Assembly: GCF_030295385.1 (NCBI RefSeq)
Contig: NZ_AP027079.1
Span: 2,294,001-2,358,000, forward strand
Length of the DNA: 64,000 nucleotides
Reading direction: 5' to 3'
Source: Geothrix oryzae
Lineage (GTDB): Bacteria > Acidobacteriota > Holophagae > Holophagales > Holophagaceae
The translations under genes and the position numbers were made by a program. Below the pieces are notes generated by a model. It was not told the origin of the DNA and made no database searches. It saw nothing but the letters and a program-made list of their open reading frames with translations. The stretch's first letter is position 1. Each line of letters opens with the position of its first letter. This document shows, piece by piece, positions 34,899 through 46,430 of the stretch.

Positions 34899-34925
34899 TT
34901 GACGACCTCACGGGCAAGTTACAAT
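34899..34925 (+). promoter_or_regulatory. candidate sigma-70 promoter of the czc-type operon
   Basis: TTGACG (34899-34904) and TACAAT (34920-34925) are spaced 15 bases apart, directed at the small Cys/His gene at 35004. This would give a leader of about 70 bases. Both hexamers are good matches; the spacing is short. Confidence 0.55.
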
Positions 34926-35003
34926 TTATCAACCCCTGTGTGTCCAGTAAGTTCCACTGCCATCTCTGGCCTAATTCCGTCATACTTGTGCCCTGGACAT
35001 TCA

Positions 35004-35363
35004 ATGACCCTCGCCCTGAACCGGATCCTCAAGCGCGCCTCGGCCGGCCTGATGCTGGCCTTGGCCCTGGTGTATCTGCTTCATTCGGCCGCGCATACTG
35101 CCGCCGCGGAAGTGGCGATCCCCGCCAACGGCGCGGCCGTGGTCCTGGAACTGGATCCCTTCGTCCTGGCCCAGGCCCAGAGCGGCGACGGCGTGGCCGG
35201 CTGCCACTTCTTCTGCAACCACGGCTGCCCGGTACCGCCCCTGCCCGACCAGCCCCGGCTGGCCGAGCCCAATTCCTCCCGCACCTACGCCCTGGCCCGG
35301 ATCAGCCCGGCGCGTGGCGCCCACCTGCAGCCCCTCGAGGCTCCGCCCCGGATGCTCGCCTGA
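35004..35363 (+). CDS. small membrane-anchored or secreted Cys/His protein heading the czc-type operon
   Basis: 119 residues. A hydrophobic N-terminal segment (SAGLMLALALVYLLHSAA) acts as an anchor or signal. The centre has a compact CHFFCNHGCP cluster (three Cys, two His), which could bind a transition metal. The remainder is Pro/Ala-rich. No family is recognised. I chose ATG 35004 because the hydrophobic segment then sits at the N-terminus; the ribosome site is weak. It parallels the Cys-rich protein that heads the cus operon at 24378. Confidence 0.55.
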   Translation: MTLALNRILKRASAGLMLALALVYLLHSAAHTAAAEVAIPANGAAVVLELDPFVLAQAQSGDGVAGCHFFCNHGCPVPPLPDQPRLAEPNSSRTYALARISPARGAHLQPLEAPPRMLA

Positions 35364-35481
35364 CGCTCCGCTGATCGCCTTCCGCGAGGTCGACCGCTTC
35401 CTGCGGTGTCGGCCTTCCGGCGCGATCCCACCCCACCGGGCCCTGGTCCGGTGGCCTTCCGCGACGCCTGACGAGGAACCC

Positions 35482-36675
35482 ATGATCCGTGCCCTGCTTT
35501 CGGGGGCCCTGGCCTGCACGCTGACCGCGCAGACCCAGGGGCCCGCATCCACCCCTCCCCTGACTTGGGAAACCCTGCTGGCCCGAGCCACCTCCGATCC
35601 CTCCCAGCTTCGCCTGGAGGCGGACCTGGCGGCCCGGCAGCGACAGCTGGCCGCCACCGGGGGTCTGCTGCGGGAGGGCCCCACCCTCACGGCCGAAACC
35701 GGCCGCCGCAGCGGCCCCGGCACCACCAGCACCGACAAGGTGGCCCAGGTGGACGCCCCCCTGCTGTTGGCCCCGACCCTTCGCGCCGGCGCCCGGGACA
35801 CCCTCGTCCGCGCCGAGGGCTCCCTCCCGGCCCTGGCCCGGGCCGAAGCCCGGCATCGGCTGCGGCTGGCCTACCTCGACGCCTGGCTCGCGGAGGCCCA
35901 GCTGCGCCTCCGCCGGTCGCAGCTGAACCTCACGGAGACCTGGGTGCGGGTGGCCCAGGCCCGGGTGGATTCGGGGTCGGATCCCGCCTACCAGGCCGAC
36001 CTGGTGCGTGGCGACCTGCTGCGACTCCGCGCCGAGCTGGGCGAAGCCCAGCGCCGGGCCAGCGAAGCCTGGGGCGCCCTGAGGGTCCTCGCCGACCTGC
36101 CGGCGGAGCCCTTGCCCCTGGCCGATCCCGGCATCCCGGCCCTGCCTGCCCCTGAAGGCTTGAGCGAGGCCTTCCAGCACAGCCTGGTGCGACGCGCCCA
36201 GGCGGACCGGACCGCGGCGGATCGCTCCGCCTTCGACCTGCAGCAAGCCCTCAAGGGCTCCCGCTGGAGCCTGCGGGGCAGCCACGCGTCCGAGGGCGAG
36301 GAGCGCATCACGCGCGTGGGCGTGGCCTTCCGCCTGCCCCGCCCCGGCGAACTCAGTGCCCAGAAGCGGGAGACCTCCGCGGGCCGCGGAGCCCTCGCCC
36401 GGGAGGCCGAAGCTGCCGCCTTCCAGCTGGAATCCCGCTTCCAGACCGCCCTGCTCCGCCTCCGCGCTTTCGGCGGGATCCTGCCGCCCCAAGGCTTCGA
36501 CGCCGCCCTCCGGGCCGTGGATCTGCGGCTCCAGGAAGGCAAGGAGCGCCCCTCGGATGCCCTGCTGCTGCGGCGCCAGCTGCTGGAGGCCGACAGCGCC
36601 TCGCTGCAGCGCCTGCGGGATGGCCATGCCCTCGCCGCCGAACTCGACCTGCTGACCCTTGGAGATGCCCGATGA
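35482..36675 (+). CDS. czcC: TolC/CzcC-family outer-membrane efflux protein
   Basis: 397 residues with a short signal (MIRALLSGALACTLTAQTQ). Long alpha-helical repeats (EADLAARQRQLAATGGLL, RAEARHRLRLAYLDAWLAEA, VRGDLLRLRAELGEAQRRA) and two short strand segments (VAQVDAPLLLAP, RVGVAFRLPRPGE) fit the TolC fold. It is the outer-membrane duct of the following RND pump. I chose ATG 35482 with GAGG upstream. It overlaps the adaptor gene by ATGA, so translation is coupled. Confidence 0.85.
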   Translation: MIRALLSGALACTLTAQTQGPASTPPLTWETLLARATSDPSQLRLEADLAARQRQLAATGGLLREGPTLTAETGRRSGPGTTSTDKVAQVDAPLLLAPTLRAGARDTLVRAEGSLPALARAEARHRLRLAYLDAWLAEAQLRLRRSQLNLTETWVRVAQARVDSGSDPAYQADLVRGDLLRLRAELGEAQRRASEAWGALRVLADLPAEPLPLADPGIPALPAPEGLSEAFQHSLVRRAQADRTAADRSAFDLQQALKGSRWSLRGSHASEGEERITRVGVAFRLPRPGELSAQKRETSAGRGALAREAEAAAFQLESRFQTALLRLRAFGGILPPQGFDAALRAVDLRLQEGKERPSDALLLRRQLLEADSASLQRLRDGHALAAELDLLTLGDAR

Positions 36676-37799
36676 CCGCCTTCCATCCGACCACCCGCCT
36701 CTTGCCCGTCCTGCTCACGGCGGGTGTCCTCCTGGGTCTCCAGGCCTGCAAGCCCAAGGCACCTGCCGAGGGAACCCCGCCCCAGTCCCAGGCGCCGGAG
36801 ACCGACGCCGTGCCGTTGAAAAGCATCCAGGAAGGACTGCGCGTGGCGGAGGTCCCGGCCCCGTCCGTGCTGCAGGCGTGGTTTCCCGCGGAAGCCACCG
36901 GAGATGAGTCCGCCCGGGCCGTCCTCACCGCCCCGGTGAGCGGCATCGTGGCCTCGGCTCCGGCCGCGCCGGGGCGTCCCGTGGCCAAGGGGGCGCCCCT
37001 GGTGACCCTGCGCAGCCCGGAACTGGCCGAATTGAAATCCAAGTGGCTCATCGCCCAGGCCCGGCTGCGTCGAGCCCAGGCTGAGCTGGCCCGGGAGCAG
37101 CGCCTCGCCGCCGCCCAGGCCGGTGCGCGACGCGATCTGGACAACGCGGAAGCCGAACACGCCAGCGCCAGCGCCGAGGCGGAATCCGCCCGCATCGCCT
37201 TGCAGGCCCGGGGCGTCACCCCCGAACGGGCGGACGGCACCTTCGTCCTGCGCGCTCCCAGCGCCGGTACCGTATCAGCCTGGAAAGCCCAGCTGGGCCA
37301 GGGGGTGTCTGCCAACGAAGAACTCGGGACCTTCCAGTCAGCTTCGGCCTCGCTGGCGGTGGTGGAATTGCCGCCCCCGGCCCCCGGAGCTTGGAAGCTG
37401 GGCAGCCGCGCGGTCATCCGCGATGACCATCGGACCTGGCAGGGCGAAGTGGTGGGCCTGCCTTCCAGCATGGGCGACATGACCCACCGCCTGACCTACC
37501 GCCTGCGCCTCTCCGGCGCTCCCCTGCCGCTGCCCGGGACGCCCCTGGAAATCCAGGTGCCGTTGGGTCAGGGTGTGCTGCTCCCGTCCTTGGCCCTCCA
37601 GCAGGTGGAAGGCGTCTGGGGCGTGTTCCTCCAGGAGGGCGACCTGGCCCGCTTCCGCCCGGTGAAGCGCGGGCCCGATGCGGGCCGGGAGACCCTGGTT
37701 CTCGATGCCCTTCCCACCGGCGCCAAGGTCTTCACCGACGGGGCCTATCTGCTCAAGTCCAAGCTGATGCGCACCAAGTCTGGGGGCGGCGATGAGTAA
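36672..37799 (+). CDS. czcB: CzcB-like periplasmic adaptor lipoprotein
   Basis: 375 residues. The N-terminus has a lipobox (GLQAC, Cys near residue 27), so the adaptor is probably lipid-anchored. The barrel-sandwich hybrid halves (VLTAPVSGIVASAPAAPGRP and FVLRAPSAGTVSAWKAQLGQ) flank a helical hairpin (IAQARLRRAQAELAREQRLA). The beta-barrel and membrane-proximal domains follow. Unlike CusB here, it lacks a heavy-metal-binding domain. It overlaps czcC by 4 bases and czcA by 8. Confidence 0.86.
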   Translation: MTAFHPTTRLLPVLLTAGVLLGLQACKPKAPAEGTPPQSQAPETDAVPLKSIQEGLRVAEVPAPSVLQAWFPAEATGDESARAVLTAPVSGIVASAPAAPGRPVAKGAPLVTLRSPELAELKSKWLIAQARLRRAQAELAREQRLAAAQAGARRDLDNAEAEHASASAEAESARIALQARGVTPERADGTFVLRAPSAGTVSAWKAQLGQGVSANEELGTFQSASASLAVVELPPPAPGAWKLGSRAVIRDDHRTWQGEVVGLPSSMGDMTHRLTYRLRLSGAPLPLPGTPLEIQVPLGQGVLLPSLALQQVEGVWGVFLQEGDLARFRPVKRGPDAGRETLVLDALPTGAKVFTDGAYLLKSKLMRTKSGGGDE

Positions 37800-40700
37800 G
37801 AATCCCCACACCCTTCTCACCCGCTGGTTCGCCTGGCTGCTGCCCAAGCAGGGCCTGGTCTACGGCGCCACGCTGCTGCTGGCCTGCACGGGCATCCTCA
37901 CCTTCTTCAACCTCAAGCGCGACCTCATCCCCGATCTCTCCCTGCCCTCACTCCAGCTGCTCATCCAGAGCCCAGGGCGCGCCGCGGCGGAGCTGGAGCT
38001 CACCGTGGCCCAGCCCGTGGAACAGGCCGTGGGCGGCCTGCCCGGCGTGCGGCGGGTGGTCAGCACCGTGCAGGCGGGCCTGGTGCAGGTGGTCATCGCC
38101 TTTGAGGGCGACACGGATCCCTGGCGGTCCCGGCAGCTGGTGGGCGAGCGCATCTCCTCGCTCATGGGTGGTTTCCCGCCCGGCACCCTGCCGCCGCTGG
38201 TGACCAGCGCGGCGGGCCGCCTGCAGGAGATCCAGGAGCTGGTGCTCACGGGCCCCGGCGTGGGGCCCATGGCCCTGCGCGACCACGCCGTGAAGGGGAT
38301 CGTCCCGCGGCTCCAGGCCGTTCCCGGAGTCGCGCGCGTGGAGGCCCTGGGCGGCGAAGCGAAGCAGATCCAGGTGCTATTGCGGCCCGACCGCATGCGG
38401 CTGCAGGGCGTGCCGCTGGGCAAGGCCATGGAGGCCCTCGAGGGCAGTGACCAGGACGGCGGGGCCGGCATCCTGGAGCTGCAGGACAAGGGCTGGTTCG
38501 TCACCCTGGGCAGCGCCGCGCCCAGCCCCGACGAGCTCCGGAGGCTGCCCATCCAGACCCAGCGCGGCACCGTGTACCTGGGTGAAGTGGCCGACATCCA
38601 GGTGGGCGCCGCCTTCCGCCGGGGACTCTCCACCTACCGCGGCGTCGAGGCCGTGTCCCTGCGCGTGGTCAAGCAACCCACGGCTGAGGCCCTGAGCACG
38701 GCGCAATCCGTGCGCGAGGCCCTGCCGGAGTTGCGCAAGGGCCTGCCCGAAGGCATGAAGCTGGAGATGTTCTATGACCAGGGCGAGTTCGTGCGCCATG
38801 CCCTCAGCGGCGTCACCCTGGCGCTGATGCTGGGCGGCGGCTTCGTGGGCCTGGTGCTCGTGGTGCTGCTGGGCAACTTCCGGGGCGCCCTGGTGGTGAT
38901 CATCCTCCTGCCCCTCGCGACCCTCGGCGCGGCCCTGCCCCTCATGTGGATGGGCCTCGGCTTGAACGCCCTCACCCTCGGCGGGCTCGCCATCTCCGTG
39001 GGTCTGCTGGTGGACGCGGGGGTCATCATGGTCGAGAACCTCACCCACCGGCTGCACCAGGCTCATGCCGACAATCCGGCCAGCCGCCGGGCCACGCTGG
39101 TGGTGGCGGCCTCGGAGGTGGGGATCCCCATCCTCATCGCCGTGCTGGTGATCCTGGCGGTGTTCATCCCGCTGCTGGCCATCGGCGGCGTGGCCGGAAA
39201 GCTCTACGCCCCGCTCGCCGTGGCCGTGGGTTCCGCCATGACCCTCAGCCTCATCCTCAGCTTCACGCTGGTGCCCACGCTGGTGGAGCGCTTCCTGCCG
39301 CCGGGCACGGTGCTGGAGGAGCCGCGCTTCGTCACGCGGCTGAAGGAGGTCTACCGGCCGGCGCTGACCTGGGCCCTGAGCCACGGCGCCAAGCTGCTGG
39401 CCGTGGCGGGCACCTTGACCGCCGCGAGCATCGTGCTGGCCCTGGGTCTCGGCAGCAACTTCCTGCCGAGCCTCGATGAGGGCGCCTTCATCCTCACGCC
39501 GAACTTCCCAGCGGAAACCAGCCTGGAGGCCGTGGACCAGGGCAACCAGATGCTGGGCCGGCGCATCCGTCAGGTGCCCGGCGTGAAGGACTACTACCGG
39601 CGCACGGGTCGCGGCGATGTCACGGAGGACCCCATGCCGCACTACTCCAGCGACATCCTGGTGCTGCTCCAGTCCGGCGCGGATCCGAAGAAGGTCGAGG
39701 CCGCCCTCGGCGCCCTGGCCGAGGAGATGCCTTATCCCGTGGAACTCACCACGCCCATGAACATGAAGATCTCCGAAGGCCTTGGCGGCACTCCCGCCGA
39801 TCTGCAGGTGAAGCTCTTCAACCCGGACATGGCGGCCCTGGAGGCCGCGGTGCCGGACCTGCGCAAGAAACTGGCGGAGCTGCCCGGGGTGAAATCCGTG
39901 GCCCCCGATACCGGCGGCCCCCTGCCCAAATGGCAGGTGAAGATCGATGACCGCGATCTGCGCCACCTCGGCGTGCCGCGGCCCCTGCTGCTCCAGACCC
40001 TGCAGGCCGCTCTCCAGGGCCTGGAGGCCGCGCCCCGCTACGACGGCCCCCAGCGCATCGGCCGCGTGGTGAGGTTCCAGATCCACGGAGATGTCACGCC
40101 GGAGCGGCTCCAGCGCCTGCCCCTGGTACTGGACGATGGGCGCGTGCTGGAGCTGGGCCAGGTGGTGACCTTCACGGAATCCACCACGCCGAGCATGATC
40201 CGTCGCGAATCCAGCCAGCGTCGACTCGCCCTGAACCTGCGAACCGAAGGCGACCTGGGCGGCGCGGCCAAGCGCGTGGACGCCCTGCTGGCTTCCCATC
40301 CGCTGCCCAAGGGCACGGTGGTGAAGCTGGGCGGGCGCATCGAGGAGGCCCGGGAAACCCAGCGCCGTCTGCTCATCGCCGTCGTCGTGGCGCTGGGCAT
40401 CGTGGTGGGCCTCCTGTATGTGGCCCTCGGCCGCTGGTGGGAGGTGACCGTCGTGCTGGCCACCCTGCCCAACGCCTTTGCCGGAGGGCTCTTCAGCCTC
40501 TGGCTGGCGGGAGAGACCTGGAATGTCAGCTCCATCGTCGGCATGATCGGCCTCTTCGGCGTGGCCGTGCAGAACAGCCTGGTGCTGATCACCCAGACCA
40601 AGGATCTGTACGCCTCGGGGCTCTCCCTGCGCCAGTCGGTGCTGGAGGCCAGCCTGGGCCGCGTGCGGCCCAAGCTCATGACCGCCGGGGCGGCCATCCT

Positions 40701-40869
40701 CGGCCTGCTGCCCATGCTGCTGGGCTTCGGGGGCAGCGAACTGGAGCGGCCGCTCGCCATCGTGATGGTGGGGGGCCTCGTGACCTCCACCCTGTTCACG
40801 CTGCTGGTCCTTCCCGGCTTCTACGAGTGGATGGGCAAGCGCCGGGGACTGGAGGCCGCCCGGAACTAG
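37792..40869 (+). CDS. czcA: heavy-metal RND pump (CzcA-like), substrate uncertain
   Basis: 1025 residues with the RND layout of two sets of helices and two periplasmic loops. Family motifs include FFNLKRDLIPDLSLPSLQ, GGLAISVGLLVDAGVIMVEN (helix 4) and the C-terminal GRVRPKLMTAGAAILGLLP. In helix 4 the CzcA-type first acidic residue (DFG) is Ser-Val-Gly here, leaving only Asp and Glu of the VDAGVIMVEN motif. The CusA methionine triad is absent (LDEGAFILTPNFPAE at the first site). Neither Cu/Ag nor classical Co/Zn/Cd export can be concluded. It is the third gene of a translationally coupled operon. Confidence 0.85.
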   Translation: MSKNPHTLLTRWFAWLLPKQGLVYGATLLLACTGILTFFNLKRDLIPDLSLPSLQLLIQSPGRAAAELELTVAQPVEQAVGGLPGVRRVVSTVQAGLVQVVIAFEGDTDPWRSRQLVGERISSLMGGFPPGTLPPLVTSAAGRLQEIQELVLTGPGVGPMALRDHAVKGIVPRLQAVPGVARVEALGGEAKQIQVLLRPDRMRLQGVPLGKAMEALEGSDQDGGAGILELQDKGWFVTLGSAAPSPDELRRLPIQTQRGTVYLGEVADIQVGAAFRRGLSTYRGVEAVSLRVVKQPTAEALSTAQSVREALPELRKGLPEGMKLEMFYDQGEFVRHALSGVTLALMLGGGFVGLVLVVLLGNFRGALVVIILLPLATLGAALPLMWMGLGLNALTLGGLAISVGLLVDAGVIMVENLTHRLHQAHADNPASRRATLVVAASEVGIPILIAVLVILAVFIPLLAIGGVAGKLYAPLAVAVGSAMTLSLILSFTLVPTLVERFLPPGTVLEEPRFVTRLKEVYRPALTWALSHGAKLLAVAGTLTAASIVLALGLGSNFLPSLDEGAFILTPNFPAETSLEAVDQGNQMLGRRIRQVPGVKDYYRRTGRGDVTEDPMPHYSSDILVLLQSGADPKKVEAALGALAEEMPYPVELTTPMNMKISEGLGGTPADLQVKLFNPDMAALEAAVPDLRKKLAELPGVKSVAPDTGGPLPKWQVKIDDRDLRHLGVPRPLLLQTLQAALQGLEAAPRYDGPQRIGRVVRFQIHGDVTPERLQRLPLVLDDGRVLELGQVVTFTESTTPSMIRRESSQRRLALNLRTEGDLGGAAKRVDALLASHPLPKGTVVKLGGRIEEARETQRRLLIAVVVALGIVVGLLYVALGRWWEVTVVLATLPNAFAGGLFSLWLAGETWNVSSIVGMIGLFGVAVQNSLVLITQTKDLYASGLSLRQSVLEASLGRVRPKLMTAGAAILGLLPMLLGFGGSELERPLAIVMVGGLVTSTLFTLLVLPGFYEWMGKRRGLEAARN

Positions 40870-40893
40870 GCAAGGGGTGTCCAAGGCACACTC

Positions 40894-40921
40894 TTGCATC
40901 AACTTGCCTTTGAAAAATAAA
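40894..40921 (+). promoter_or_regulatory. candidate promoter for the porin-cytochrome operon
   Basis: TTGCAT (40894-40899), 16 bases, AATAAA (40916-40921) in an AT-rich patch between czcA and the porin gene. The leader would be about 35-40 bases. The hexamers match the consensus only moderately. Confidence 0.35.
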
Positions 40922-40962
40922 GCCGCAAGACGAGGGCGCCGAGATGGACATAGAGGTCACCT

Positions 40963-42090
40963 ATGCCCTCCCGGCGCCCTTGGCACATGCTCGTCTGCGT
41001 AGCGATCTCGGTCGCCGCCTCGGCCGCGGAAGCCCAGGCGACCCCGAGCCTGCCCGTCGAACCCGCCAGGCCCCCGACCTGGCGGGAATCCCTGGATGCC
41101 GGCCGGGACCGCCTCGCCGAACGCCTGTCCGGCCTCAAGCTCTCAGCCTTCGGGGATGCGCTCGCGGCCCCCGACGACCAGGGGCGGCGCAGGCTGGAGG
41201 CGGGCGCCTTCGAACTGGACTTCGCCGGAGAGTTCCACGAGAGGGTGGACGCGGCTGCCGCCGTGGTCACCACCCGCGAGGCCACCAAGCTCCCGGTGGC
41301 CTTCCTGGACTTCCATCCCTTCGGCGGCACCATCGCGCCCCGCGGCCGACTCTGGGTGGAGAGGGGCTTCCACATCCAGGCCGGGCGCTTCGATGTGCCC
41401 TTCGGCAACGACTGGCAGTTCTTCGCCAGCAAGGACAGCGTGTCCATCTCGCGTCCGCTGACCACGGACGGCATCATGGATGGCGGCTACAACGACATCG
41501 GTCTGCGCGTCCTCGGCAACGACGGCACGGCCAACTTCAACGCCTTCATCCTGCGCGGCTTCGGCGATGGCCGGCTGGCGGGCGGCCGCCTGGGTTTCAC
41601 GCCCTTCGGGAACCCCTTCTCCCTCCGGGCCGTGCGGGATCCCAAGTCCCTCGAGTTCGGGGTCTCCTGCCTCTATGACACCGGCGCCGACCGGAGGAAG
41701 CGGGAGATGGCCTGGGCGGCGGATGCGGAAGGCCGGGTGGGGCCCTGGTATCTGCGGGGCGAATATCTCCTCCGGCGCCAGGAGCCCGATGGGGGCAGCG
41801 AACGGATCACCCGCCGGGGCTGGCACCTGACGCAGGAATTCGTCTTCGCGGACCTGCCCGCGCCCACCACCCTGTTCCTGCGCTACGAGCGCATGGGCCA
41901 GCTGCCGGCGGATGGCCAGCCCGGTAGCGACCACGATGTGCGCGCCGCCGCGGGACTTTCCCTCACCCTCGCCGGCATCTTCCAGCTGAAGGCCGAGTGG
42001 CAGCACTTCCTCGAGGCCACCACGGCCACCCGGGACACCCCTGCCTTCAGCCCCAATGTCTGGCTGGCCCAGCTGGTGGTGGTGTTCTGA
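40963..42090 (+). CDS. porin-like outer-membrane beta-barrel protein
   Basis: 375 residues. A signal peptide (HMLVCVAISVAASAAEA) is followed by a short helical linker and repeating amphipathic strands (LEAGAFELDFAGEFHERVDA, ERGFHIQAGRFDVPFGNDWQ, GLRVLGNDGTANFNAFILRG), ending in LAQLVVVF with a C-terminal Phe for barrel insertion. It resembles porins of the phosphate-selective/OprO type in general design, but the family is not certain. Its stop overlaps the start of the tetraheme cytochrome gene (TGATG), so the two are coupled. AGAGGT precedes the ATG. Confidence 0.72.
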   Translation: MPSRRPWHMLVCVAISVAASAAEAQATPSLPVEPARPPTWRESLDAGRDRLAERLSGLKLSAFGDALAAPDDQGRRRLEAGAFELDFAGEFHERVDAAAAVVTTREATKLPVAFLDFHPFGGTIAPRGRLWVERGFHIQAGRFDVPFGNDWQFFASKDSVSISRPLTTDGIMDGGYNDIGLRVLGNDGTANFNAFILRGFGDGRLAGGRLGFTPFGNPFSLRAVRDPKSLEFGVSCLYDTGADRRKREMAWAADAEGRVGPWYLRGEYLLRRQEPDGGSERITRRGWHLTQEFVFADLPAPTTLFLRYERMGQLPADGQPGSDHDVRAAAGLSLTLAGIFQLKAEWQHFLEATTATRDTPAFSPNVWLAQLVVVF

Positions 42091-42533
42091 TGCGTGGCCT
42101 CCGGCTGTCCGCCCTCCTCTGGAGCGTGGCCATCTTCGCCCAGGCGCCGGACGACATGCCGGGGCGGATGGCGCTGAAGGACCCGGCCACCTGCGCGCCC
42201 TGCCATCCCGAGGACGCCGCCGCCCGGTGGACCTCCCACCGCGAGCAGCCCTGTACCGCCTACTGCCACACCTGCCACCTGGCCGCGGACATGGCCAAGC
42301 ACCACGCGGTGGACAGCCTGCTCCGCAAGTCCCTGAATGCGAAGCTGCCGCTCACCGCCGGCCACCGCACCGCCTGTTTCACCTGCCATACCCTGGCCCA
42401 GGCCCGCTACGACCGCGTCCGGTGGAAGGCCGAAAGCCTCTTCGGCCGGTTGTTCCGCCGGGAACCCCGCCAGAAAACCTACTTCCTCGTCACTCGCAAC
42501 GATCGCGGGCAGCTCTGCCGCGCCTGCCATTGA
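42090..42533 (+). CDS. exported tetraheme c-type cytochrome
   Basis: 147 residues with a signal peptide (MRGLRLSALLWSVAIFAQA). Four CxxCH heme-binding motifs are visible: CAPCH, CHTCH, CFTCH and CRACH. The last one is at the extreme C-terminus. Extra His residues (TSHREQ, AKHHAV, AGHRTA) could serve as distal ligands for bis-His hemes. It is a periplasmic or outer-membrane-associated electron carrier. I chose ATG 42090, which overlaps the porin stop and starts at the signal peptide. Confidence 0.87.
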   Translation: MRGLRLSALLWSVAIFAQAPDDMPGRMALKDPATCAPCHPEDAAARWTSHREQPCTAYCHTCHLAADMAKHHAVDSLLRKSLNAKLPLTAGHRTACFTCHTLAQARYDRVRWKAESLFGRLFRREPRQKTYFLVTRNDRGQLCRACH

Positions 42534-42541
42534 GGTCTGCC

Positions 42542-43111
42542 ATGAGCCAGGGCCGACAGCGCCGCATCATCCTCATCGACACCCGGTTCCAGCTCCGTCT
42601 GGCCGGGGCCTTCGTCCTGCTCCAGGTGGTGCTCACCGGGGCCTTCGCCTTCGGACTCTATGTCTTCATGGACAGCGAACTCCAGGCGGGCCTGGCTTCG
42701 GCCCACGCCGCCTACCGTTCCCTCGATCAGATGCTCCTGCCCCTGGTCCTCATCCTCGCGGGCTTCAGCCTGGCGCTCTCCACCACCCTGGTGACGGCCT
42801 TCGTGGTGATTCTGAGCCACCGCATCGCGGGCCCCCTCTATCGATTCCGCCTGGTCATGGAAGGCCTGGCCGAACGGCAGCTCGCGCCCCATGCCCGCAT
42901 CCGGCCCGACGACCAGCTGGGTGTCCTGTCCGAGGCCACGGGCCGCGCCCTGGAGATCCTCCGGTCCGATCTGGCGACCCTGCGGACCGGCCTCGACCAG
43001 GCCCGGCAATCGGTGGCTGCGGGCGATCTTCCCTCGGCCGCCCGGGATCTCGCCGATCTGGACGCAACGCTTTCGCGGTGGTCTCTTGGCGATTCCGGCA
43101 GCCCCGAGTGA
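42542..43111 (+). CDS. HAMP-domain membrane protein without an output domain
   Basis: 189 residues. Two membrane helices (LAGAFVLLQVVLTGAFAFGL and MLLPLVLILAGFSLALSTTL) flank a short loop of about 30 residues. They are followed by a HAMP-like region (HRIAGPLYRFRLVMEGLA, DDQLGVLSEATGRALEILR) and a terminal coiled coil. There is no kinase, methyl-accepting or cyclase domain. I chose ATG 42542 with GAGG upstream, 8 bases after the cytochrome stop. It could sense redox state or scaffold the neighbouring electron-transfer proteins; that role is inferred. Confidence 0.75.
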   Translation: MSQGRQRRIILIDTRFQLRLAGAFVLLQVVLTGAFAFGLYVFMDSELQAGLASAHAAYRSLDQMLLPLVLILAGFSLALSTTLVTAFVVILSHRIAGPLYRFRLVMEGLAERQLAPHARIRPDDQLGVLSEATGRALEILRSDLATLRTGLDQARQSVAAGDLPSAARDLADLDATLSRWSLGDSGSPE

Positions 43112-43122
43112 TCCCGATCACT
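43107..43122. promoter_or_regulatory. CRP/FNR-type palindrome
   Basis: AGTGATCCCGATCACT is a perfect palindrome around a 2-base centre. The core TGAT-N4-ATCA matches the pattern of CRP/FNR-family sites (TTGAT-N4-ATCAA for FNR/DNR). It overlaps the stop of the HAMP gene and lies 53 bases before the next ATG. Confidence 0.5.
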
Positions 43123-43149
43123 TCATGACCTTAAGGTATTGTTTTGTTC

Positions 43150-43174
43150 GATTTTGATACTCAATATCAAAATC
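43150..43174. promoter_or_regulatory. perfect 10-bp inverted repeat abutting an ATG
   Basis: GATTTTGATA (43150-43159) and TATCAAAATC (43165-43174) with a 5-base centre end exactly at the ATG of the next gene (43175). No ribosome site is visible between the repeat and the start. It could be a repressor operator or, in RNA, a hairpin that controls initiation. Confidence 0.6.
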
Positions 43175-44020
43175 ATGAAACGATCATCCTCCTCCCCCCT
43201 CGCCCTCGTCCTGCTGCTCGGCGCCTTCTTGGGCCACGCCCTCGGCGCTCAGGAGCCCTCCCGCCCCACCCCCATCCAGGACAATTCCTTCCTCCTGGAG
43301 GAGGCCTACAACCAGGAGGCGGGCGTCATCCAGCACATCCAGACCTTCTCCCGGCTCCAGCGCAGCGGAGATTGGGTCTACACCTTCACGGAGGAGTGGC
43401 CCTGGGGCGGCCAGCGCCATCAGCTGAGCCTCACGGCCCCGCTGCAGCGGCTGGCCTCGTCGCCCGACGGCGGCCGCCGCGGCATGGGCGACCTCGCCCT
43501 GAACTACCGCTATCAGGCGCTGGGGGATGGCTCGTCGGTGGTGGCCTTTGCCCCGCGTCTTTCCGTCCTGCTGCCCACGGGCAACCACAACCAGGGGCGC
43601 GGCAACGGGAATCCCGGCCTTCAGGTCAATCTGCCCCTCAGCGTGGTGCTCGGCGATCAGTTCGTGACCCACATGAACCTGGGCTACACCTACACGCCCC
43701 ACGCCAAGGACCTGCTCGGCCACCAGGCCGACATCGGCACCACGAACATCGGCCAGAGCTTCGTCTGGCTGGCCCGGCAGGATGTCAACCTGCTCCTGGA
43801 GTTCGCCTACACCAGCGGCGAGGTGGTGGCGGGCCCGGGGGTCCGCCAGCCCACCCAGAGCGCCTTCATCTCCCCCGGCATCCGCTGGGCCTACACCTTC
43901 CCCAGCGGCCTCCAGGTCGTGCCGGGCATCGCGGTGCCCATCGGCGTGGGCGCCAGTCGCGGCGAGAAGGCCATCTTCCTCTACTTGAGCTTCGAGCACC
44001 CCTTCACCAGAGGGAAATGA
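43175..44020 (+). CDS. outer-membrane beta-barrel protein of the phenol-degradation MetA family
   Basis: 281 residues. The signal peptide is SPLALVLLLGAFLGHALGA. The mature barrel starts QDNSFLLEEAYNQEAGVIQH and includes VVAFAPRLSVLLPTGNHNQG, VTHMNLGYTYTPHAKD and the terminal IFLYLSFEHPF, which match the transporter family named after the MetA protein of phenol degradation. Such barrels are found near many exporters and redox clusters. It starts right after a perfect palindrome and lies 7 bases from the convergent TonB receptor gene. Confidence 0.8.
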   Translation: MKRSSSSPLALVLLLGAFLGHALGAQEPSRPTPIQDNSFLLEEAYNQEAGVIQHIQTFSRLQRSGDWVYTFTEEWPWGGQRHQLSLTAPLQRLASSPDGGRRGMGDLALNYRYQALGDGSSVVAFAPRLSVLLPTGNHNQGRGNGNPGLQVNLPLSVVLGDQFVTHMNLGYTYTPHAKDLLGHQADIGTTNIGQSFVWLARQDVNLLLEFAYTSGEVVAGPGVRQPTQSAFISPGIRWAYTFPSGLQVVPGIAVPIGVGASRGEKAIFLYLSFEHPFTRGK

Positions 44021-44027
44021 CCCGGCC

Positions 44028-46430
44028 TCAGAATTTCCACTTCACCCGCGCCGCCAGGGTGCGGGGCGGGACGACATGGGTGCCGCCGAAGGTGCTGAGG
44101 AAGTTGTAGAGGCCCCGCTCGTCCGTGGCGTTCAGCAGGTCCAGGCCCATGGCCAGGCGCCGCCGCCCGGAGATGGCCCACTCCTTCCCCAGGCTCAGGT
44201 TCCAGGTGGTGCGCGGCTTGATCCGCCAGGTGCCCTCGGAGTCCTTCCGGACATACCCCGCGCCGAAGGCGTAGTCGGGATTCCCGTCGACCTGGACGGG
44301 ATCGCTGGCCACCAGGCCCGAGTCGTAGCGGCCGATCACCTGCGCCGTGAGCCCCTCGTGCTCGTAGGTGAGACCTGCCTGGGCGCTCAGCTTCTGGTCG
44401 TGGTCGATGAGGAAGCGCTCGCCGGCCGCGGCCTCGGGCGCCTCCAGCTGGAGTCCGCCCACCAGGGGCGCCTGGAAGATGGCCCGGGTGCGGCCCAGGC
44501 TCAGGTAGGCCGACCAGCCCTTCACGGGCACCAGGTCCAGGCGCAGGTTCATGCCCCGGAAGATCCCCCGGTCGGCGCCCACCGGGAACAGCAGGCCGGT
44601 GTTGAGGAACTGGGCGTTGTCGCCCGCGTTGCGGCTCTGCTTCTCCCAGTACTCCACCATGAGGCGGCCGGCCTTGCCCAGCTGCTGCTCCACGCCGTAG
44701 CTGTACGAATGCTGGCGTTCAGGCCGCAGGGGCTGTCGGGGCGTGCCCGCGTAGGGCCCCAGGTCCCAGGCCTGCTGGGACAGCGACAGGGCCAGGTTCT
44801 CGTGCTCCCGCAGGATCATCAGGCGGTCATAGGAGGCGCGGAAGACGGTGCCCGTGGCGTCCACGCGGTAGCTCAGCCCCAGGCGGGGCTGCAGCAGGTT
44901 GTCGGAGAGGTCGGCCACGGTGTAGGTGTCGTGGCGGAGGCCCAGCGCCAGGAAGAACGAGCCCAGGTGGATGTCGTTCTGGAGGAAGGCCGAGGTCAGC
45001 GTGGGGCGCAGGCTCGCCTCGAAGCGGAACAGGTTCCCGCCGCCGGCGGGGGTGTAGGGGTACAGGGGATCCGAGGGGCCCGCGGCCTGGGCATCCTCGG
45101 TGAGGGCAAAGCTGAACCGTTCGTGGAGGGGGAAGGCTATGCGCTGGAGCCCCACCTTCAGCAGGTTCTCCTGGCCCCACCGCTGCGTGAAGGACACCTG
45201 GACGCCCAGGTTGTCCAGGCTGCGGTCCTGCTTCGCCCAGTACGGAACATCGCGGTGGCCGCCCGCCGTGAAGCCGTCGGCCAAGTCTTCGCTGGGCTTC
45301 AGCTCCGCCCGTGAGGCCCGGAAGAACAGGGAGGCATCCAGGCTCTGGCTCGCGCTGAACAGGTGGGCCCAGGCCAGGCTCGCATTGAAGTCCGAGGTGG
45401 CGGCGCGCTGATCCTGGCCCCGCAGTTGCTGGGAAGCCAGGTTGACCACCTCGCGGTCCGTCCGGCCCCCGGACAGCGAGAACCGCAGGGTGTCCCGGCT
45501 GCCGAGGATCCAGTCGAAGCGCGAGAAGAGCCGCCCGGTCTTCCCGTGGTTGTGCAGGTTCTCGAAGTTGACGGGGTCGAGGAACCGGTCGCTTTCGCTG
45601 GCGGCGGCACTCACGAACCAGCCGAAGGCGGCCTTCCCGCCCCGCCCATTGAACCCGGCTTCGGAAGTGTTGAAGCGCGAGACGCCGAAGGAGGCCTCAC
45701 CCTCGAACCCATCCGGAGTGCCGAGCCCCGACTTGGTGGTGAGGTTCACCACCACCACGGGCTTGCCGCCGTACTCCGCCGAAATGCCGCCCGTGATGAC
45801 CTCCATGCTCTCCACCTGGGAGGGATCCAGGCTGTTGCTGAAGGAGGCGTGCATCTGATCCGAGACGGGAATGCCGTCCACCACATAGGTCATCTGCCCG
45901 TGGCTGCCCCGGAAGTGGAAGCGGCCGTTCTCGTCGGCGATGAAGCCCGGGGTGGTGAGCAGGATGCTCTCCATGGCCCGGCTCTGCACGGCCGCCGGGG
46001 TGCGCTCGATGGTCGTCTTGTCGATGTCGATGTGGGTGCTGGGGTGATCCTCCACCAGCCGCAGGTTCTCCTCCACCACCACCACGGCGCCTTCGGGCTT
46101 GAGGCTCACGGTCACCTGGAGGGGCAGCTGGCTGTGGATGTCCACATCGAGGTGGCTGGGCATCAGACCCGTGGCCTGGGTGTCCAGGTGGTAGGTGTTG
46201 AAGGGCACATTCTGGAAGACGAAGGCCCCCCGGGCATCGCTACGCACCCGCTGCCGGTAGCCCGACACGGGATTGGCGAGGGTCAGGCTGGCCCCGGCCA
46301 CGGCCCGGCCCTGGTCATCGGCCACCCGGCCCGACAGCTGGCCGCTGGTGGCCGCAGCGGCGAAAGCCGGTCCAGCGGCGAGAAGGGCGAGGAGGGCGGG
46401 GCCGAAGCAGCGGTGCGACACGAAGGGCAT
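44028..46430 (-). CDS. TonB-dependent receptor with N-terminal carboxypeptidase-regulatory domain
   Basis: 800 residues. A signal peptide (GPALLALLAAGPAFAAAA) leads into a carboxypeptidase-regulatory-like domain (GQLSGRVADDQGRAVAGASL), then the plug (MESILLTTPGFIADENGRFH, YVVDGIPVSD, EVITGGISAEYGG) and a 22-strand barrel ending LAARVKWKF. This design is common in Acidobacteriota and Bacteroidota for uptake of large ligands; the ligand is unknown. The ATG at 46430 directly follows AGGAG, so GTG 46421 could be the true start. It diverges from the adaptor/permease operon. Confidence 0.88.
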   Translation of the reverse strand: MPFVSHRCFGPALLALLAAGPAFAAAATSGQLSGRVADDQGRAVAGASLTLANPVSGYRQRVRSDARGAFVFQNVPFNTYHLDTQATGLMPSHLDVDIHSQLPLQVTVSLKPEGAVVVVEENLRLVEDHPSTHIDIDKTTIERTPAAVQSRAMESILLTTPGFIADENGRFHFRGSHGQMTYVVDGIPVSDQMHASFSNSLDPSQVESMEVITGGISAEYGGKPVVVVNLTTKSGLGTPDGFEGEASFGVSRFNTSEAGFNGRGGKAAFGWFVSAAASESDRFLDPVNFENLHNHGKTGRLFSRFDWILGSRDTLRFSLSGGRTDREVVNLASQQLRGQDQRAATSDFNASLAWAHLFSASQSLDASLFFRASRAELKPSEDLADGFTAGGHRDVPYWAKQDRSLDNLGVQVSFTQRWGQENLLKVGLQRIAFPLHERFSFALTEDAQAAGPSDPLYPYTPAGGGNLFRFEASLRPTLTSAFLQNDIHLGSFFLALGLRHDTYTVADLSDNLLQPRLGLSYRVDATGTVFRASYDRLMILREHENLALSLSQQAWDLGPYAGTPRQPLRPERQHSYSYGVEQQLGKAGRLMVEYWEKQSRNAGDNAQFLNTGLLFPVGADRGIFRGMNLRLDLVPVKGWSAYLSLGRTRAIFQAPLVGGLQLEAPEAAAGERFLIDHDQKLSAQAGLTYEHEGLTAQVIGRYDSGLVASDPVQVDGNPDYAFGAGYVRKDSEGTWRIKPRTTWNLSLGKEWAISGRRRLAMGLDLLNATDERGLYNFLSTFGGTHVVPPRTLAARVKWKF

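Follow-up and report, generated by a model that had tools for sequence, protein, structure and literature searches.

The window analysed here is a 64,000-nucleotide stretch of Geothrix oryzae DNA (contig NZ_AP027079.1, positions 2,294,001 to 2,358,000) from a genome of 3.27 Mb that forms a single contig. It carries, on the plus strand, three tightly packed genes for a porin (40963..42090; 375 amino acids, with a signal sequence), a tetraheme c-type cytochrome (42090..42533; 147 amino acids, with an N-terminal hydrophobic, signal-like segment) and a HAMP-like, two-helix membrane protein without an output domain (42542..43111; 189 amino acids). The TGA of the porin gene overlaps the ATG of the cytochrome gene (TGATG), and 8 bases then separate the cytochrome gene from the HAMP-like gene at 42542, just as an earlier note, made from the letters of the window, had described. 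That note read the set as a possible outer-membrane electron conduit and named conserved three-gene synteny as a check. Such synteny is present in several phyla, with near-identical spacing. Among the compared loci (L numbers; G numbers denote genomes), the spacing between the porin stop and the start of the cytochrome gene is -1 in the window, L030, L041, L042 and L047, -4 in L043 and 11 in L050, and that from cytochrome stop to HAMP-like start is 8 in the window, L030, L041 and L042, 9 in L047, 37 in L043 and 5 in L050. Since order and spacing recur so closely across homologous loci, the three-gene pattern does not reflect chance open reading frames (ORFs).

The full porin-tetraheme-HAMP order was found in Holophagaceae, in metagenome-assembled genomes (MAGs) labelled Deltaproteobacteria, Methylotenera, Gallionellaceae and Spirochaetes, and in G110 (L073). 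Porin and tetraheme occurred in the same five of 60 relatives, equivalent to five of the 37 genomes of the genus (window genome included), and were contiguous with a HAMP-like gene in all five. Searching 396 genomes of the phylum with the porin profile returned six matches, one of them marginal (E 9.7e-7), and a scan of genome contigs with a two-pattern filter yielded 15 loci, several on contigs already among the loci. Across the order of the Gallionellaceae genome, the tetraheme was detected at E<=1e-12 in one of 399 genomes, namely that genome itself. We regard the set as an accessory module of patchy distribution that has probably been transferred horizontally.

None of the three window proteins reached a curated Pfam or NCBIfam cut-off. 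For the porin, an AlphaFold2 model (13 homologs; predicted local distance difference test score (pLDDT) 78, predicted template modelling score 0.75) comprises 16 strands and comes closest in structure to OprP (2o4v, Z 27.2) and OprO (4rjw, Z 27.1), both with a root-mean-square deviation of 3.2 over 306 aligned residues; other porins scored at most 23.7. The family's most conserved stretch includes the long loop joining strands 5 and 6 (codons 145-176, 41395..41490), which occupies the L3 position, and L3 is the constriction loop of classical porins. The window porin had no match to Porin_O_P (PF07396) at E<=1, PF07396 was absent among the Pfam matches listed for 13 homologs (25 of 32 families), and a profile comparison with Porin_O_P gave a faint relation (E 8.3e-4, probability 24%) through a short local match around the start of the conserved loop; the porin profile had no match among PDB sequences. 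The earlier note had held that a porin from a well-characterised, solute-specific family without a redox link would speak against a conduit. On this point the evidence divides: the predicted fold is OprP/OprO-like, but PF07396 is missing from those listed matches, and a cytochrome partner further sets the window porin apart from OprP and OprO. Its nearest named relative, from Geothrix sp. BP11, is 97% identical. The window porin holds no CxxCH motif; the porins are acidic (isoelectric point 4.8-6.0 in five members computed) and the cytochromes basic (8.5-9.4 in four members computed).

The cytochrome carries its heme motifs at residues 35-39 (CAPCH, 42192..42206), 59-63 (CHTCH, 42264..42278), 96-100 (CFTCH, 42375..42389) and 143-147 (CRACH, 42516..42530), the final histidine being the C-terminal residue, which upholds the earlier count of four CxxCH motifs in 147 residues with the last at the C-terminus. 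Sixteen homologs have in common the four motifs, an extra Cys55 that might ligate a heme (42252..42254, invariant in 16/16 alignment rows) and a His71-His72 pair (42300..42305), likewise invariant and providing the sole conserved candidates for distal His ligands; two of the 13 cytochromes counted have no other non-motif histidine at all. With two conserved non-motif histidines for four hemes, the tetraheme is unlike an all bis-His wire, and two or more of its hemes probably have no bis-His ligation supplied by the protein itself. The tetraheme profile matched many multiheme proteins weakly, NrfB best (E 6.9e-5); its match to profiles of 7-heme proteins (E 4e-12) covers only 70 CxxCH-rich columns, and we did not count it as proof of relation.

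In the third protein, hydrophobic segments at residues 18-44 and 60-93 enclose a short conserved loop, and there is a HAMP-like region. PF00672 (HAMP) was matched at E<=1 by three of ten homologs (best 0.012), the window protein not among them, and comparison with segments of chemoreceptors comprising the second transmembrane helix and the HAMP domain gave E 4.6e-6 (probability 86.5%, 68 columns). The earlier description as a HAMP protein without output domain may thus hold in a qualified form, weakly supported by Pfam and favoured by the receptor profile. A histidine in the conserved loop was considered as an axial heme ligand and rejected, as L032 has arginine there. The inner-membrane proteins related to PCC3 and PCC4 have five helices and two HX13H motifs according to the passages of PMC5566968 we draw on, whereas the window protein has two hydrophobic segments. 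HAMP-like relatives occurred in 24 of 297 genomes, and in nine of these a copy adjoins a multiheme cytochrome (four within the trio, five beside a 7-heme protein); cytochrome genes are also present at the HAMP-relative loci L079 and L080. The family is not cytochrome-specific. Judged by its gene neighbours, it has a second, non-cytochrome context in L089, L093, L094 and L095 (G127, G159, G306 and G102), where its members adjoin genes for prepilin-like proteins and for a putative membrane sensor.

HAMP-like relatives also flank 7-heme cytochromes in larger clusters (G037, G045 and G057) that we labelled Uet-like by our own reading of the sequences. In other Acidobacteriota, L033:374-10660, L035:208-8670 and L037:2695-12874 combine cytochromes of 7, 10, 11 or 13 hemes with NHL-like proteins, a barrel and a pair of HAMP-like proteins that flank the 7-heme cytochrome. 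Uet clusters comprise an undecaheme cytochrome, NHL proteins and a peptidyl-prolyl isomerase in the sections of PMC10734462 consulted; the window set has the HAMP-like family in common with the Uet-like clusters, and at 33-50 kb of the window none of the Uet hallmarks (NHL, peptidyl-prolyl isomerase, large multiheme genes) was seen.

These properties bear directly on the conduit proposal, in which the tetraheme would insert into the barrel and pass electrons out to extracellular acceptors as a minimal porin-cytochrome system. Fe(III) reduction is a known trait of Geothrix, large multiheme clusters contain HAMP-like relatives, and the porin gene directly adjoins a multiheme cytochrome gene, as it does in MtrAB, MtoAB and PioAB. 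However, the window porin has 16 predicted strands in place of the 26 that parts of PMC8406198 give for the MtrCAB barrel, it keeps the conserved loop at the L3 position, and its cytochrome has four hemes rather than ten, with few conserved distal histidines. The stretch at 33-50 kb of the window showed neither a surface cytochrome gene nor any further multiheme gene, and most Geothrix genomes searched lack the set (5/37 have it). An MtrAB-type sheathed conduit had been our first idea and was downgraded on the 16-strand prediction and the L3-position loop; in view of the model, such a sheathed wire appears unlikely, and we hold a minimal conduit to extracellular acceptors to be unlikely as well. 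What remains of the earlier proposal is a conserved unit with a likely redox or iron link, to which the feo context, the Cyc2 barrel class and the HAMP-like relatives next to 7-heme proteins point; its MtrAB-type logic was not supported, given the predicted strand count, the loop, the lack of further multiheme genes at 33-50 kb and the two conserved non-motif histidines.

The iron link is most explicit in Thermoanaerobaculia, the class of G429, where the porin was found in four of 148 genomes. At all four loci (L046, L048, L049 and L141), the porin-tetraheme pair lies directly behind a gene encoding an iron-dependent repressor-FeoA protein. FeoB follows repressor-FeoA in L046/L071 and L141, a FeoB-associated Cys-rich gene also follows in L046 and L049, and no FeoB lies between repressor-FeoA and porin in L048 and L049. 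The palindrome GTTAGANNNNTCTAAC stands just ahead of the repressor gene in 4/4 loci, L048 and L049 carry it again ahead of their porin genes, and it occurred in none of 200 base shuffles of each of the four loci. At L048:5996-6400 and L049:6382-6790 the palindrome overlaps what may be left of the beginning of a feoB gene, and both loci resemble the outcome of a feoB deletion that spared the operator, which would now serve the porin genes. Downstream of the L046 pair, on the same strand, are Fur-family and catalase-peroxidase genes. A HAMP profile found no match in G426, G428 and G429 (G1003 lay outside that search). In a porin tree, into which L040 entered as its open C-terminal part only and from which L141 was left out, the three iron-linked rows group as a single clade (support 100/99), and trios are found to either side of the midpoint root, which serves for drawing only. 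With trios on both sides, loss of the HAMP gene in the iron-linked clade is the simpler history.

We interpret the set as an iron- or metal-handling porin with a periplasmic multiheme reductase, for which the HAMP-like protein would act as a membrane-side adaptor, and we assign this reading a probability of roughly 0.45. It is favoured because the repressor/FeoB context alone names a substrate and the efflux operons next to other copies, described below, point to metals; together they make a metal, chiefly iron, module the preferred explanation. The 16-strand, OprP-like porin would let in a metal in soluble form, perhaps as an anionic ferric chelate. The small basic tetraheme would meet the metal on the periplasmic side and change its redox state, most likely by reducing Fe(III) to Fe(II); a conserved distal histidine is lacking for two of the four hemes, which may be open to substrate. 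We infer the direction of reduction because FeoB needs Fe(II). In Thermoanaerobaculia, the resulting Fe(II) would feed FeoB, making the tetraheme an assimilatory ferric reductase, and in bacteria with a window-type set the HAMP-like protein would probably offer the cytochrome a docking site on the inner membrane or report its redox state. The Geothrix-like form could work in assimilation, in respiration with soluble ferric chelates as acceptors or, together with the pump, in detoxification.

This reading draws on the conserved gene order, the feo and efflux neighbourhoods, the OprP/OprO-like barrel and the pairing of an acidic porin with a basic cytochrome, and the feo-operon setting in particular suggests iron handling rather than a long electron wire. 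Several observations weigh against it. The iron-linked loci are related, with one clade holding the three included in the tree, and so are not four independent events. The window itself differs from the homologous pairs in or behind Feo operons in having no feo gene among the ORFs at 34-50 kb, and the GTTAGANNNNTCTAAC palindrome is absent from the whole window. The tetraheme model (pLDDT 54) is too poor to reveal open hemes and was not used. Finally, other loci neighbour chemoreceptors or a hydrogenase.

A further comparison is with Cyc2, a Fe(II) oxidase, whose porin domain is described in parts of PMC8406198 as 16-stranded and of high structural homology to OprO and OprP. The window set shares this barrel type, with OprO/OprP nearest (PMC8406198, in those same parts), the single small cytochrome part per porin and, in some of its relatives, the iron context. 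It differs in that Cyc2 has a monoheme cytochrome fused N-terminally to the porin, where the window has a separate tetraheme and a HAMP-like gene. In working principle, the Cyc2-like arrangement is by analogy the nearest known one, without shared sequence: comparing our porin profile with a Cyc2-like profile from Gallionellaceae genomes, whose proteins were found by a motif and labelled Cyc2-like by us, gave no match (hhalign E 0.13, probability 0.5%). The set might accordingly be read as a split, multiheme analogue of Cyc2, with Fe(II) entering the porin and being oxidised by the tetraheme for energy or detoxification, and the presence of the trio in one Gallionellaceae MAG and one Methylotenera MAG fits that idea, as does the common barrel class in the cited passages of PMC8406198. 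Yet sequence relation to Cyc2-like proteins is missing, the Gallionellaceae carrier stands alone among the 399 genomes of its order, and the feo linkage of relatives points to reduction and uptake. Oxidation of this kind strikes us as quite improbable.

Upstream of the trio, on the plus strand, lies a heavy-metal-type resistance-nodulation-division (RND) efflux operon (35314..40869) with genes for an outer-membrane factor-like protein (35314-36675), an adaptor (36672-37799) and a CusA/CzcA-family pump (37792-40869), the last of which stops 93 bases before the porin gene. The trio follows such an operon in L029, L038, L030 and L042 as well. In L051 and L052 a porin without cytochrome directly follows a CusA gene; the L051 genome has its tetraheme-HAMP pair on another contig, and the L052 genome has a weak cytochrome match only (E 3.2e-5) and no HAMP match. 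Adjacency of pump and porin thus recurs to either side of the porin tree, these cytochrome-less cases among them, and would suit a metal or oxyanion resistance module in which the tetraheme alters the redox state of a toxic ion and the pump removes it. Set against this, L031, L041, L043, L046-L050 and L073 showed no RND gene next to the set, and the window pump scores 568 bits with TIGR00914, under the 701-bit cut-off. As an account of the whole set, resistance seems to us clearly doubtful.

Other neighbourhoods involve signalling genes. HAMP_2-domain chemoreceptors adjoin the set in L041 (two), L043 and L073. The nearer one in L041 (L041:5078-7897) has a CLDCH c-heme motif at residue 145, ahead of its HAMP domain, and its gene ends 73 bases upstream of the porin gene. 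In L073:4308-14950 (G110), the trio lies downstream of, and on the same strand as, hydrogenase genes, a maturation protease gene and a HAMP_2 chemoreceptor gene, with a PocR/PAS histidine kinase gene downstream of the trio; the NiFe-hydrogenase subunits are closest to the VhuA and VhuG models, under their cut-offs. From its gene order, this region is possibly one long redox-signalling operon.

A redox sensor would account for such neighbours: metal entering via the porin would charge the tetraheme, and the HAMP-like protein would signal to chemoreceptors or kinases. Its HAMP-like region without output domain, the adjacent chemoreceptors, one with a c-heme motif, and the kinase next to the L073 trio speak for this, and Shewanella, according to portions of PMC5789149, requires MtrBC/OmcA and a methyl-accepting chemotaxis protein for taxis to insoluble acceptors. 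Speaking against it, the window trio showed no chemoreceptor gene beside it, pairs located in feo operons lack the HAMP gene, and chemoreceptor genes are common anyway. We judge a sensor of this kind distinctly unlikely. A more elaborate variant, a trans-envelope redox reporter, appears very unlikely: the porin would admit a redox-active metal that charges the tetraheme, the conserved loop of the HAMP-like protein would read the heme state, HAMP-HAMP contact would relay this state to kinases or HAMP-repeat chemoreceptors, and after loss of HAMP in Thermoanaerobaculia the pair would have turned into a Feo ferric reductase.

Among titles and abstract openings of open-access PMC papers, a search that left most subscription papers and all preprints outside, none described the three-gene set. 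The set is apparently undescribed, porin plus c-type cytochrome being known as a kind and the link to Feo apparently fresh. From which enzymes the FeoB of Gram-negative bacteria receives its Fe(II) in the periplasm is a long-standing question, and porin and multiheme cytochrome genes behind repressor/feo genes provide concrete candidates for that supply. The Geothrix-like set, with its HAMP-like protein and RND pump, offers a second setting, be it for acquisition, efflux, sensing or respiration. The comparison also advises caution, in that a porin next to a multiheme cytochrome is not automatically an electron conduit.

A simple scan of 40500-44100 found no sigma-70-like promoter and no terminator, and inverted repeats upstream of the porins in the compared loci showed no common motif. 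The transcription unit may extend past the three genes, given the closeness of the RND operon and of a plus-strand gene for a Phenol_MetA_deg-type outer-membrane protein (43139..44020) downstream. The latter may start either at the TTG at 43139 or at an ATG further on; if the TTG is used, it begins 27 bases behind the HAMP-like gene. Homologs lie at the same place in L029 and L038 and nearby on the other strand in L031; none was seen at L030. Just ahead of the RND operon, 34899-35363 encodes a small protein with a Cys/His-rich stretch (CHFFCNHGC), without Pfam match for its residues from 34998 on. Relatives of this protein stand at the same place in L029, L030 and L042.

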